From Haloferax sp. Q22 (GTDB taxonomy: Archaea > Halobacteriota > Halobacteria > Halobacteriales > Haloferacaceae), in assembly GCF_001482285.1 (NCBI RefSeq), contig NZ_LOEP01000027.1, positions 1 to 64,000 of the forward strand: 64,000 bases of DNA, written 5' to 3'. The position numbers and the translations under genes were made by a program. Within the stretch, counting starts at the first letter, position 1. Each line of letters begins with the position of its first letter. A model generated the notes under the pieces. That model was given only the letters and a program-made list of their open reading frames with translations, ran no database searches and was not told where the DNA came from. Below, in pieces: positions 6,145 through 10,882 of the stretch.

Positions 6145-7205
6145 CAGTTGTCACCTCCCGTCTCGTCGGCGTCACCCGACGCGTCCGCCGCGCTCCCGCC
6201 GTCCGTTGCCGCCTGCGCCGGCGGGTTCGTAAACACGTTCTCGTACGCCTCCTCCGGGTCTGGTTCGGGCTGTTCTTTCGCCCACGAAATCGCCTCTTCG
6301 ACCCGCTCGTGGGCGCGCTCTCGAATCTCGTCGAGTTCGTCGTCGGTCACGCCGTGCGAGCGGAGGTCCTCGGCGAGTCGCTCGATGGAGTCACGCTGTT
6401 TCGCGCGGTCGATGTCGGCCTCCGGGCGATAGGCCTCGGCGTCACCCATGAAATGACCCATCCGGCGGTGGACCTGTACCTCGATGAGCGTCGGCCCGTT
6501 GCCGTCGCGGGCGCGCATCACGGCCTCGCCGGCGGCCTCGTAGACCGCCGTGGCGTCATCGGAGTCGATGCGGACGCCCGGAAGGTCGAAGCCGGCGGCG
6601 CGCTGTGCGCCGTTCTGCACGTCGGTCACGCGGTCTTTCGGCATGCTGATGGCCCAATCGTTGTCCTCGACGACGAAGACGACCGGGAGGTCGTGGACCG
6701 CCGCGAGGTTCAGCGATTCGAGGAAGCCGCCCTGGTCGATAGCGCCCTCGCCGAGGAAGGCGACGGCGACCGAGTCGGTGTTCCGCTTTTTCGCCGCCAT
6801 CGCCGCGCCGACCGCCGGCGGACAGCCCTGCGCGATGATGCCCGAACACGCGAAGTTCACGTCGGGGTCGAACAGGTGCATGTGGCCGCCCTTCCCGCGG
6901 CACAGCCCCGTCTTCCGACCGAAAATCTCGGCCGTCATGCGCTTGAGGTCGACGCCCTTCGCGATGGCGATGTGGTGCGGTCGGTGCGGCGCGGTCACCG
7001 TGTCGTCGTCTCGGAGATGCATGCAGACGCCCGCTCCGGACGCCTCGTGGCCGGCCGCGAGGTGGAGTTCGCCGGGAATCGGCCCTGCCGAGATGTCGAA
7101 CGCCGGCTGCTTGCCGACGAGATACTCGTCCACCAGTCGCTCCTCGTAGTGCCGAGCAGTCACCATCTGCTCGTACATCGTCTGTAGGTCGGTAACACTC
7201 ACCAT
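6144..7205 (-). CDS. 2-oxoacid dehydrogenase E1 alpha subunit
   Basis: A 353-residue E1 alpha. The thiamine-diphosphate binding motif begins GEGAIDQGGF and ends about 30 residues later at EDNDWAIS. Upstream lie the family segments HLAAGHEASGAG, PHRPHHIAIAKG and GRKTGLCRGKGGHMH. The C-terminal 30 residues are an Ala/Asp/Gly-rich tail typical of halophiles. The ATG at 7205 is preferred over one 13 codons upstream because a TATA-like element lies 26-35 bases before it. It is first in the operon E1alpha-E1beta-lipoyl protein; no E2 or E3 gene is nearby. Confidence 0.92.
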   Translation of the reverse strand: MVSVTDLQTMYEQMVTARHYEERLVDEYLVGKQPAFDISAGPIPGELHLAAGHEASGAGVCMHLRDDDTVTAPHRPHHIAIAKGVDLKRMTAEIFGRKTGLCRGKGGHMHLFDPDVNFACSGIIAQGCPPAVGAAMAAKKRNTDSVAVAFLGEGAIDQGGFLESLNLAAVHDLPVVFVVEDNDWAISMPKDRVTDVQNGAQRAAGFDLPGVRIDSDDATAVYEAAGEAVMRARDGNGPTLIEVQVHRRMGHFMGDAEAYRPEADIDRAKQRDSIERLAEDLRSHGVTDDELDEIRERAHERVEEAISWAKEQPEPDPEEAYENVFTNPPAQAATDGGSAADASGDADETGGDN

Positions 7206-7230
7206 GGTTGGCGTTCGGGTGTACTCCCGA

Positions 7231-7240
7231 TTGTATATCA
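7231..7240 (-). promoter_or_regulatory. TATA-like element for the E1 operon
   Basis: On the minus strand this reads TGATATACAA, 26-35 bases before the E1alpha ATG at 7205. That is the spacing expected for a leaderless or very short-leader archaeal transcript. Confidence 0.45.
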
Positions 7241-7344
7241 ACATTAATTGTGTAAGTCATGACCATCAGAACGAGCGGACTACGAATTCAGGAGGGTCGA
7301 CGGGTCGAGACAGGCCTAAGCCGCAGTCCGCCGTATCGTCTCGT

Positions 7345-7986
7345 ATGAACGACACGACGCCGAACCTCGTCTCGATACCCGTCGGTGACGCGGTGCTGGA
7401 GGGCGACCTCCGCATTCCGCCCGAGGCGTCGGGACTCGTGGTGTTCGCCCACGGCAGCGGCAGCAGTCGGGAAAGCCCGCGAAACAACTTCGTCGCCGAG
7501 GTCATCCGCGACCGCGGGGTCGGGACGCTCCTTTTCGACCTGCTCACGGAGGCGGAGGACGAGCAGTACGAAACGAGGTTCGACATCCCGCTTTTGACCG
7601 ACCGATTGCTCGGCGCGACCGAGTGGCTCCGCGGCCGCGACGACACCGCCGACCTCGACTACGGCTATTTCGGGTCGAGCACTGGCGCGGCGGCGGCGCT
7701 CCTCGCGGCCGCCGACCTCGGCGACGACACCGGTGCGGTCGTCTCTCGCGGCGGGCGCGTCGACCTCGCGGAGTCCCGACTCGGCGACGTGACGGCACCG
7801 ACGCTGTTCGTCGTCGGCGGTGCCGACGAACCAGTTCTGGGGCTGAACCGCGACGCGTTCGCGGAACTCGACTGCGAGAAGTCGCTGGAAGTCGTCAAGG
7901 GCGCGGGCCACCTGTTCGAGGGGCCGGGCGAGCTGGACGAGGTGGCCGACCTCGCCGCCGACTGGTTCGAAGCAAACCTCGGCTGA
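7345..7986 (+). CDS. Alpha/beta hydrolase, dienelactone hydrolase-like
   Basis: A 213-residue cytosolic alpha/beta hydrolase. The oxyanion-hole strand is VVFAHGSGSSRESPRN. The nucleophile elbow is GSSTG (Ser near residue 113), the acid is probably the Asp in GGADEPV, and the base is the His in GAGHLFEG. Family members of this size act on esters or lactones, but no substrate can be named. The ATG at 7345 fits the family; the open frame upstream is basic and not conserved-looking. It is divergent from the E1 operon. Confidence 0.82.
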   Translation: MNDTTPNLVSIPVGDAVLEGDLRIPPEASGLVVFAHGSGSSRESPRNNFVAEVIRDRGVGTLLFDLLTEAEDEQYETRFDIPLLTDRLLGATEWLRGRDDTADLDYGYFGSSTGAAAALLAAADLGDDTGAVVSRGGRVDLAESRLGDVTAPTLFVVGGADEPVLGLNRDAFAELDCEKSLEVVKGAGHLFEGPGELDEVADLAADWFEANLG

Positions 7987-8323: not shown

Positions 8324-10135
8324 ATGACAGAACCCGAGTCGACGGAGCTCGACGAATCCGTTCGCGAGGCCGTTGAACGGTCACGAAGCGGTGCGCCGGC
8401 GGTCGGTTCGGTGGTTCGCGACCGGTTTTCGTCCGACGAGGTGTTCCAGCGCATCGTCGCGGCCGCGGACGAGGAGATAACCTCCGGCGCGCGGGAACTG
8501 TTCTTCAGCGCCCTCGCCGCGGGCTTCGCGATTACGATCACGTTCCTCCTCTACGTCTCGATGAAAGCGTCCACCGGCGGCGACCCGGTGTTAAGTGCGA
8601 TGCTCTATCCGCTCGGGTTCATCTACATCATTATCGGGGGCTATCAGCTCTACACCGAGAACACGCTCCCGCCGGTCGCGTTGACGCTGGAGCGATTGGC
8701 CAGTATCCCCGCGCTCTTGCGTAACTGGGTCGTCGTCCTCGCGGGGAACCTCTTCGGCGGGACGCTCGGTGCGGCCGCCCTCGCCTTCGGCGGCGTCCTC
8801 TCGCCGGAAGCCGCGAACGCGGCGCTCGAACTCGCTCAGAAGGGCGTCGAGACGCCATGGTGGAGTCTCTTCTTCAAGGCCGCGTTCGCCGGCCTCATCG
8901 TCGCCGGCGTCGTCTGGGTCACCTTCGCCGCCCGCGACACTATCTCTCGTCTCGCCGTCGTCTATCTCGCGTTCCTCGCGGTTCCGCTGGGTGGCCTCTT
9001 CCACGTCGTCGTCTCCTACACCGAGATGGTCTACCTCGTGATGAACGGCCAGCTGGCGTTCCTCGTCGGACTGACCCAGTTCGTCGTCCCCGTGCTGTTG
9101 GGCAACACCTTCGGCGGCGTCGTCCTCGTCACCGTCGTCAACTACTTCCAGACGACGGAAAACCGGTTAGAATCCGCTCGTTTCGAGGGCGCGAAACGGC
9201 AGCTCTCGATTCGTGAGTGGGTACTGGGTGGACTCGCCGGTCGGTCGTACGTTCCGCTTATCGAGACCGAAGAGGGAACCGACGACCACCCGGACTCCTA
9301 CCGGGTCGTCGTCCCCATCGCGAACCCGCGGACCGAGTCGCACGTCGTCGAACTCGCCTGCACGCTCGCGAAGTCGAAAGAAGACGCCATCGTCGATATC
9401 GTCCACGTGGTGCAAGTCCCCTCGCGCGTCTCACAACGCTACGGCGCCGCACAGAACCAACGGATTATCTCACACTCCAACGAGCAGCTCGAAGACGCCC
9501 GCGAACGCGCCGCCGGCTATGACATCGAAGCCCGGACGTCGACCGTCGTCTCACACCGCTCGTTCGAGGAGATTTTCACCGTCGCCCGCCGCAAAGACGC
9601 GGACCTCGTCATCATGGGCTGGAGCAACGACCGAATCTGGGCGGGAGGACGCGCAGAGCGGACGATGAGCGAGTTGACGAGCCGCCTGCCCTGTGATTTC
9701 CTCGTCCTCAACGACCGGAACTACGACACCAGTCGACTCCTCTTGCCGACGGTCGATAGCCCCCACTCGGCGCTCAGCGCCGAGGTCGCGAAGTCCCTCC
9801 AGTCGGCCGTCGGGTCGGAGGTGACGCTCCTCCACGTCGTCGACGGTCCGGACGACCGCGAACGGGGCGAGGCGTTCCTCTCCGACTGGGCGACCGAACA
9901 CGACCTACAGGACGCGGCGCGAATCGTCGACGACTCCGGCGACATCGAACGAGCCATCGCCGAACGGGCCGACAGCCACTCGATGGTGCTGATGGGCGCG
10001 ACCGAACAGGGCCTTCTCACTCGACTCCTGACCGACTCGCTGCACCTCGACGTGGTCAACGACACCGACCACGCGGTTCTCTTGGTGGAACGCGCCACCG
10101 ACCGAAGCCTCAGACAGCGTCTGTTCGGACGCTGA
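8324..10135 (+). CDS. FNT-family channel fused to two UspA domains
   Basis: A 603-residue fusion. Residues about 60-300 form a six-helix formate/nitrite transporter domain. Family hallmarks are visible: YTENTLPPVALTLERL, RNWVVVLAGNLFGG, a histidine in GGLFHVVVSYTEM at the place of the FNT pore histidine, and VPVLLGNTFGGVVLV. Residues about 323-463 and 465-600 are two universal stress protein folds (VVVPIANPRTESHV and LLLPTVDSPHSAL begin them). Neither has a clean nucleotide-binding Gly-x2-Gly-x9-Gly motif. The natural reading is a monovalent-anion channel or exporter gated by a cytoplasmic stress sensor. The substrate (formate, nitrite, other) is unknown. Confidence 0.9.
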   Translation: MTEPESTELDESVREAVERSRSGAPAVGSVVRDRFSSDEVFQRIVAAADEEITSGARELFFSALAAGFAITITFLLYVSMKASTGGDPVLSAMLYPLGFIYIIIGGYQLYTENTLPPVALTLERLASIPALLRNWVVVLAGNLFGGTLGAAALAFGGVLSPEAANAALELAQKGVETPWWSLFFKAAFAGLIVAGVVWVTFAARDTISRLAVVYLAFLAVPLGGLFHVVVSYTEMVYLVMNGQLAFLVGLTQFVVPVLLGNTFGGVVLVTVVNYFQTTENRLESARFEGAKRQLSIREWVLGGLAGRSYVPLIETEEGTDDHPDSYRVVVPIANPRTESHVVELACTLAKSKEDAIVDIVHVVQVPSRVSQRYGAAQNQRIISHSNEQLEDARERAAGYDIEARTSTVVSHRSFEEIFTVARRKDADLVIMGWSNDRIWAGGRAERTMSELTSRLPCDFLVLNDRNYDTSRLLLPTVDSPHSALSAEVAKSLQSAVGSEVTLLHVVDGPDDRERGEAFLSDWATEHDLQDAARIVDDSGDIERAIAERADSHSMVLMGATEQGLLTRLLTDSLHLDVVNDTDHAVLLVERATDRSLRQRLFGR

Positions 10136-10249: not shown

Positions 10250-10882
10250 ATGAGCTCAGACGCCGACCAGGCGATAACGGTCTACTCGGACTACGTGTGT
10301 CCCTTCTGTTACCTCGGGAGGCAGTCCCTGTCGCAGTATCAAGAGACGAGAGACGAGGAACTCGACATCGACTGGCATCCGTTCGACCTGCGGAGTCAGA
10401 AGCGCCGCCCCGATGGAAGCATCGACTTCTCGGTCGACGACGGAAAAGACGAAGACTACTACGAGCAAGCGAAGCAGGGAGTCCGACGGTTACAAGAGCG
10501 GTACGGCGTCGAGATGAATCTGGACCTCGGGACCGACGTGGACTCGCTCCCGGCGCAAATCGTCTCGTACTACCTGAAGGGACACGCCGACTACGAGACG
10601 TGGCTCGCGTTCGACGAGGCGGTTTTCGAGGCGCTCTGGCAGGACGGTAGAGACATCGGCGACGAGGCGGTGCTCGTCGAACTCGCCGAAGCGGTGGGCG
10701 TCGACGGCGAGGAAGTCACGTCCGCGCTCGACGACGAGACGCTTCGGACCGAAGTGCGCGAACGATTCAGTGAGGCTCAGCAACACGGCGTCACGGGTGT
10801 TCCGACCTTCGCATACGAGGGGTACGCCGCCCGAGGAGCGGTTCCGCCGGAGCAACTAGAGCGACTCGTCGAGGGAACGTAG
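10250..10882 (+). CDS. DsbA-family thiol oxidoreductase, FrnE-like
   Basis: A 210-residue thioredoxin-fold protein with an inserted helical domain. The active site YVCPFCYLG carries a CPFC redox pair near residue 17, and the cis-proline loop is GVTGVPTFAYEG. No signal peptide is present, so it acts in the cytoplasm like FrnE rather than in periplasmic disulfide formation. The related 2-hydroxychromene-2-carboxylate isomerases lack the second cysteine, which argues for redox activity here. Monocistronic by context. Confidence 0.85.
   Translation: MSSDADQAITVYSDYVCPFCYLGRQSLSQYQETRDEELDIDWHPFDLRSQKRRPDGSIDFSVDDGKDEDYYEQAKQGVRRLQERYGVEMNLDLGTDVDSLPAQIVSYYLKGHADYETWLAFDEAVFEALWQDGRDIGDEAVLVELAEAVGVDGEEVTSALDDETLRTEVRERFSEAQQHGVTGVPTFAYEGYAARGAVPPEQLERLVEGT

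Follow-up and report, generated by a model that had tools for sequence, protein, structure and literature searches.

A YfdC-type formate/nitrite channel of Haloferax carries a C-terminal tandem Usp cassette that is common to haloarchaeal amino-acid permeases

A single gene of Haloferax sp. Q22 encodes a channel of the formate/nitrite type (FNT) followed in the same chain by two Usp folds, and this tandem Usp is a cassette common to FNT channels and to haloarchaeal APC amino-acid permeases. The gene (FNT-Usp-Usp) is located on the forward strand of the window, by which we mean the whole stretch of 64,000 nucleotides that was analysed, and it runs from an ATG at 8324 to a TGA at 10135, encoding 603 amino acids without internal stops. 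The interpretation that we tentatively prefer, with slightly more doubt than belief, is that the protein is a YfdC-type FNT anion channel whose opening would be set by its cytosolic cassette, with an adenine nucleotide as the first candidate ligand. The features on which the argument depends are as follows.

8324-10135, forward strand: FNT-Usp-Usp coding sequence (open frame, Pfam, full-length relatives)
8357-8494, forward strand: segment N-terminal of TM1, aa 12-57 (consensus of 47 fused and 24 unfused rows)
8438-9148, forward strand: FNT channel domain, aa 39-275 (Pfam PF01226, full profile)
8639-8665, forward strand: Omega-loop GYQLYTENT, aa 106-114, with L109, Y110 and T111, and with E112-N113 typical of YfdC (alignment)
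9002-9004, forward strand: His227, the equivalent of FocA His209 at the central constriction (alignment, row counts)
9149-9301, forward strand: channel C-terminal tail and linker to Usp1, aa 276-326 (aligned rows)
9302-9706, forward strand: Usp domain 1, aa 327-461 (Pfam PF00582; cassette model)
9314-9340, forward strand: Usp1 beta1-alpha1 loop, aa 331-339, from P-I-A-N-P-R-T-E (conservation in FNT cassettes)
9731-10090, forward strand: Usp domain 2, aa 470-589 (second Pfam stretch; profile alignment to 1wjg; cassette model)
9995-10045, forward strand: Usp2 beta4-alpha4 loop, aa 558-574, GATEQGLLTRLLTDSLH, which occupies the position of the canonical G-x2-G-x9-G[ST]

The sequence-only reading from which this study started had proposed an FNT domain fused to two UspA folds, and it is borne out by one frame of 603 codons in which both Pfam families are found in full. 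Form_Nir_trans (PF01226) matches aa 39-275 over positions 1-240 of its 240-position profile (E 3.6e-50; 171 bits, cut-off 34.6), and Usp (PF00582) matches two stretches, the better one at 327-461 (E 2.9e-18; 67.2 bits, cut-off 24). The Usp folds together span aa 327-603, and PF00582 is matched by all of the 42 FNT cassettes. To the question of whether the domains might be made as separate proteins, the answer is a single chain, because the frame is undivided here and of full length in relatives too; its recurrence across Haloferax and Halobacteriales genomes also means that it is not a frame artefact. Moreover, the stretch from R281 to V330 comprises 46-49 residues in all but one of the 48 aligned rows (55 in the exception), and a linker of such nearly constant length is what would be expected if the tail and the pore were mechanically coupled.

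The architecture itself is not novel to this DNA and has been in print since 2011. In their account of haloarchaeal FNTs, Anderson et al. (2011; PMC3102087) report such channels fused or adjacent to UspA, list Hmuk_1674, HQ1451A, NP6264A, Hlac_2299 and Htur_2705 as fused or adjacent, and propose, as a possibility only, a regulatory role for the FNT-linked UspA. Relative to that account, the present study adds a cassette phylogeny, an analysis of the pocket and a wide survey, and with them the YfdC-type assignment, the cassette common to permeases, the altered conserved loop, the likeness of fold and the proximity of TrkH. A pattern scan of 84,980 species recovered the full-length frame in Haloferax gibbonsii, H. 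marisrubri and H. prahovense (98-99% identity) and in H. profundi (85%), always over the whole 603 residues; because these four were all that it recovered, the scan is insensitive. Of 392 genomes sampled from the phylum (81 Halobacteriales and 311 others), at least 51 of the Halobacteriales have a match over the full length (beginning at residue 1-22 and ending at 600-603, E <1e-200), a lower bound because the best three candidates per genome were scored, and none of the 311 others has one. Among 152 matching plasmid records, 10 cover at least 80% of the query, and all 10 are haloarchaeal. The sequence-only reading had recommended looking for the same architecture outside the haloarchaea, and these two surveys did not find it there; FNT-Usp-Usp is common, widespread and, as far as tested, confined to Halobacteriales. 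A search of viral contigs for relatives that would deepen the alignment returned none. Some FNT is present in 246 of 292 genomes of the class, and FNT-Usp-Usp is the sole FNT-family match in its own genome. Related genomes contain Usp-less channels that are 61-69% identical over the FNT part; therefore, such a channel can do without the tail.

In most discussions of FNT channels, gating is ascribed to a short N-terminus or to a partner enzyme, and FocA, which has a short tail and a partner enzyme, was the comparison chosen in the sequence-only reading. FocA of E. coli and relatives does share with FNT-Usp-Usp the family and the equivalents of Thr91 and His209, but the sequence match is weak (about 180 residues, E 1.4e-5 to 3kcu) and FocA is not the nearest comparison, since the pore residues are of the YfdC type. 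In an alignment to 3q7k, a solved FocA-type channel, L89, T91 and H209 of FocA correspond to L109, T111 and H227. All three, like E112, are invariant among the fused rows (47 of 47) and among the Usp-less ones (24 of 24); judged by this alignment, the pore is intact at its key residues. The YfdC pattern is seen in the replacement of N172 by Gly (G190), S92 by Glu (E112), T93 by Asn (N113), L79 by Phe (F99) and F202 by V220, the last position being I or V in all 47 fused rows. According to the subfamily criteria of Mukherjee et al. (2017; PMC5525234), YfdC members have Gly at N172, Glu at S92, an aliphatic residue at F202 and Phe or Tyr at L79. A charged residue at G86 is given there for 75-81% of YfdC members, so that this feature is not strictly defining; the present channel shares the subfamily residues and differs in its Usp tail and in having Gly106 where most have a charge, as do 46 of 47 fused rows and the nearest unfused relatives. 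For this reason, we call the channel YfdC-type and make no alpha or beta placement, an assignment that derives from aligned residues. The YfdC subfamilies are described in that article as functionally unassigned, and the word "stress" does not occur in its main text. By analogy with the FNT family, we infer a homopentamer with one pore per protomer. The segment preceding TM1, which we take to be cytoplasmic from established FNT topology, has a core that is common to fused and Usp-less relatives; it therefore probably predates the fusion, and N-terminal control, if any, is probably older than the Usp tail.

Residues ~310-603 are roughly 37-57% identical to the C-terminal part of haloarchaeal permeases, and in 45 of 45 tested long frames that bear the cassette, the membrane part is an amino-acid permease according to Pfam. 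These APC permeases thus have the same cassette at the C-terminus, up to 57% identical and with the same signature, but on a membrane part that is not FNT. One tandem-Usp amino-acid permease (L115, G000:C20:86846-87706) is found on the same contig, ~77 kb away, with a tail 44% identical to the FNT tail.

In a cassette tree of 96 rows (48 FNT, 43 APC and 5 lone cassettes; IQ-TREE), from which L052_19 and L064_6937 were omitted for their long branches, the FNT cassettes are set apart from all others by one branch with support of 100/100. With a two-row distant outgroup and 45 other rows, support for a single FNT-cassette clade was 83/100 and not starred; the clade is well supported without the distant outgroup. 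The outgroup-rooted tree places the FNT cassettes in an unresolved fork with the APC cassettes, and a single clade of all APC cassettes is not rejected (p-AU 0.41), so that an APC donor is our preference and not a result. In an earlier cassette tree, the FNT state needed two changes, with L123 labelled as FNT-fused by local alignment; L123 is a permease. The FNT domain gives a similar history: in a tree rooted on six Usp-less channels, all fused rows but one (41 of 42) fall into a single clade (99/95) that is nested among Usp-less channels. The second FNT-domain tree was built without L008, L009, L010, L075_5196 and L080, which are long or oddly composed, and was thinned of the near-copies L003, L004, L019, L025, L020, L014 and L082; the first, before the removal of rows, needed three changes. 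The exception is L045 of genome G037, the FNT part of which groups with the Usp-less copy of its own genome (L070), a placement that recombination between the fused and Usp-less copies of G037 would produce.

A model of the cassette alone was built from five sequences (pLDDT 72.5; one loop and the C-terminal 37 residues are poorly predicted); a full-length model from five near-identical sequences had a mean pLDDT of 44.8. The best fold matches of the cassette model are tandem Usps, namely, TTHA0350 with ATP (Z 15.4; 4.2 A over 218 residues) and also UspE and Rv2623. These are followed by the cytosolic domains of cation-chloride cotransporters (3g40, Z 12.4; NKCC1, Z 12.6) and by TeaD (Z 11.1). 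The C-terminal domains of the cotransporters (3g40, NKCC1 and KCC; Z 10.1 to 12.6) likewise place two Usp-like folds behind a transporter, but one of the APC type, and TeaD of Halomonas elongata is a transporter-regulating Usp of similar fold, but a separate, single-domain, ATP-binding subunit. PF21554, the family of the prokaryotic cotransporter tail, was matched by 4 of 42 FNT and 3 of 43 APC cassettes at E up to 0.1 (best E 0.0029), and unrelated families give similar counts; the resemblance to cotransporter tails in the model is thus one of fold, and the sequence link is weak. TTHA0350 is reported to bind ATP without a detectable motif (PMC12159084), and the published description of the KCC1 tail places ATP in a Usp-like site, names TeaD as the closest fold match and has TeaD regulating a transporter (PMC8280820). 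By analogy with these ATP sites, a nucleotide ligand for the cassette would be reasonable.

The sequence-only reading had called the nucleotide motifs of both Usp domains degenerate. The canonical ATP motif G-x2-G-x9-G[ST] of the UspFG/MJ0577 class is indeed absent from all 48 FNT cassettes, and it occurs in 1 of 43 APC and 0 of 5 lone cassettes. However, the motifs are not simply degenerate, because 42 FNT and 43 permease cassettes preserve an alternative signature (N334-P335; G558-A559-x3-G563-x3-R567; E589) with little or no variation: P335, G558, A559, G563, R567 and E589 are identical in all 85, and N334 in all but one. Conservation was compared for eight stretches picked from the Usp topology. 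The Usp2 beta4-alpha4 loop (558-574) is matched or exceeded by 0.4% of segments of equal length, in FNT and APC cassettes alike, and the Usp1 beta1-alpha1 loop (331-339) by 3% in FNT cassettes; with eight stretches tested, the two low fractions in FNT cassettes are suggestive only. The Usp1 beta4-alpha4 and Usp2 beta1-alpha1 loops of FNT cassettes are of ordinary conservation, and thus neither Usp domain keeps both halves of a normal pocket equally. Because so few segments are as conserved as the Usp2 beta4-alpha4 loop, these patterns suggest a Usp site that has been altered rather than one that has decayed, and a structural role would also be compatible with them. Two further residues distinguish the FNT cassettes, W439 (42 of 42 FNT vs. 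16 of 43 permease cassettes) and H574 (36 of 42 vs. 1 of 43), and W439 is a candidate contact with the channel.

In the mechanism that we propose, the cytosolic cassette, which contains two Usp folds and is closely connected to TM6, would set the opening of the channel. The cassette was most likely acquired once by the channel lineage and is of the same kind as that on haloarchaeal APC permeases. The two Usp folds of each chain would most likely pair with one another, giving five pairs beneath the pore. A small ligand from the cytosol, for which an adenine nucleotide is the first candidate, would on binding move the tail below the Omega-loop so that the pore opens or closes. The cargo would be formate or another small monovalent anion, and the likely purpose would be to tie anion flow to the energy or ion status of the high-salt cell. 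It is plausible that, as suggested in the sequence-only reading, nucleotide or energy state is sensed by the tail, which would then gate the pore.

The surroundings of the gene give no general partner. Within the window, a pair of E1 dehydrogenase genes is located upstream on the opposite strand, the frame 7204-7986 has no Pfam match at E 0.001, and the gene directly 3' (10250-10882, forward strand) is DsbA-like (PF01323, E 1.3e-36). This downstream gene recurs in 2 of 41 FNT-Usp loci counting the window, the other being the Haloferax locus L005. Across the 41 loci, at ~5 kb per side and with gene-overlapping frames aside, no neighbour group occurs in more than 7, and a conserved operon was rejected on these counts. 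A gene for the K+ transporter TrkH is located within 5 kb in 6 of 40 genomes (G066, G068, G069, G075, G217 and G260). All of these loci except that of G075 also hold a permease with a tandem-Usp tail, that of G069 being only distantly similar (29%), and in five genomes (L031, L032, L052, L058 and L064), TrkH, the tandem-Usp permease and FNT-Usp occur within ~6 kb.

The DsbA-like fold that is encoded by the next gene in the window is a fused domain in other FNTs related to FNT-Usp-Usp. Three haloarchaeal FNTs of 518-545 aa without Usp (L014:1351-2904, reverse strand; L015:721-2355, forward; L081:4227-5816, reverse) have an N-terminal thioredoxin/DsbA domain, and an FNT on plasmid pSR116 of Salinibacter ruber (L134:3986-5557, forward) has a C-terminal one; its gene directly follows a bacteriorhodopsin gene (L134:3105-3839, forward). 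The best matches of a literature search for FNT with DsbA were not about such a fusion. FNT pores seem to gather differing soluble domains.

The cassette could instead have no small-molecule ligand and serve as a structural element or docking site; it would then stabilise the oligomer or recruit a partner protein and would not gate the pore. The missing canonical ATP motif, the existence of Usp-less relatives and the FNT-enriched W439 and H574, which could be contact residues, are all consistent with such a role; we nevertheless consider it unlikely, because the phosphate-side loop of Usp2 ranks among the most strongly conserved parts of the cassettes in two unrelated transporter families, with G558, A559, G563, R567 and E589 constant throughout. 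A different ligand, c-di-AMP, would place the protein within the haloarchaeal network of K+ and osmotic control. Haloferax is reported to make c-di-AMP via DacZ (PMC8305020), and the Usp domain of KdpD is described as binding it without an ATP motif but with the first Gly kept (PMC8214093), which may be compared with G558. The proximity of TrkH points the same way, with 0.40 genomes expected (P 2.8e-6 for six and 4.9e-5 for five, kinship ignored), but the test was made after the pattern had been seen, and G066 and G068 are near kin. Beside the gene in G037, ~70 bases away, there is also a weak, broken TrkH remnant (G037:C1:2446340-2446747; E 2.7e-4) with two in-frame stops. However, the KdpD-type motif (A/G/C)xSxSx2N(Y/F) was found in 0 of 96 cassettes, and 34 of 40 genomes, that of the window included, have no TrkH within 5 kb. 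A c-di-AMP receptor therefore seems very unlikely to us.

According to the suggestion of 2011, the protein would be a plain formate channel that serves folate metabolism or the oxidation of formate and has a regulatory tail, and formate was proposed from the folate neighbours of two haloarchaeal FNTs, one of them Usp-less (PMC3102087). Of the 10 plasmid loci with a full-length match, seven were inspected, and two of these have a formate dehydrogenase alpha gene (fdhF) within 6 kb, as the next gene in Halocatena salina and about 4.3 kb away in Halobaculum halobium. On the Halocatena salina plasmid unnamed3, the FNT-Usp gene adjoins genes for Fdh-alpha and NADH-dehydrogenase-like subunits (L126:8068-10485, reverse strand). 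Such links are local. Formate-tetrahydrofolate ligase is present in 10 of 40 FNT-Usp genomes, in none of them near the gene, and is absent from the genome of the window, so that the ligase neighbour was not found here for the fused lineage and formate or folate as a general partner was rejected as a general rule. Fdh-alpha has no match in at least 4 of the 40 genomes (G012, G043, G066 and G178), and G217 and G260 are not among the matching genomes; its co-occurrence otherwise carries no information, since 263 of 292 genomes match the model. Furthermore, the pore is of the YfdC type, the class described as functionally unassigned (PMC5525234). A plain formate channel is thus unlikely in our view, and a YfdC-type channel that would be regulated by its tandem-Usp cassette, with an adenine nucleotide as candidate ligand, is the reading that we tentatively retain.

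A bolder form of this reading, which we regard as improbable, is that a portable cassette that evolved on APC transporters was moved once onto an unrelated five-fold anion channel and kept across Halobacteriales, where a non-canonical nucleotide site, formed mainly by the Usp2 beta4-alpha4 loop, would gate anion flow by K+ or energy status. With an odd number of chains, pairing between tails of different chains would always leave one tail over; the cassette would then have to be an intramolecular pair, and two transporter superfamilies would be under the control of a single regulatory device.

If FNT-Usp-Usp is a lineage-wide FNT with a built-in cytosolic sensor, it would be a clean system for the study of gating in FNT pores. 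Since the same cassette is carried by amino-acid permeases, identification of its ligand would account for the regulation of many haloarchaeal transporters together, and it would also bear on sensing by the similar tails of cation-chloride cotransporters.
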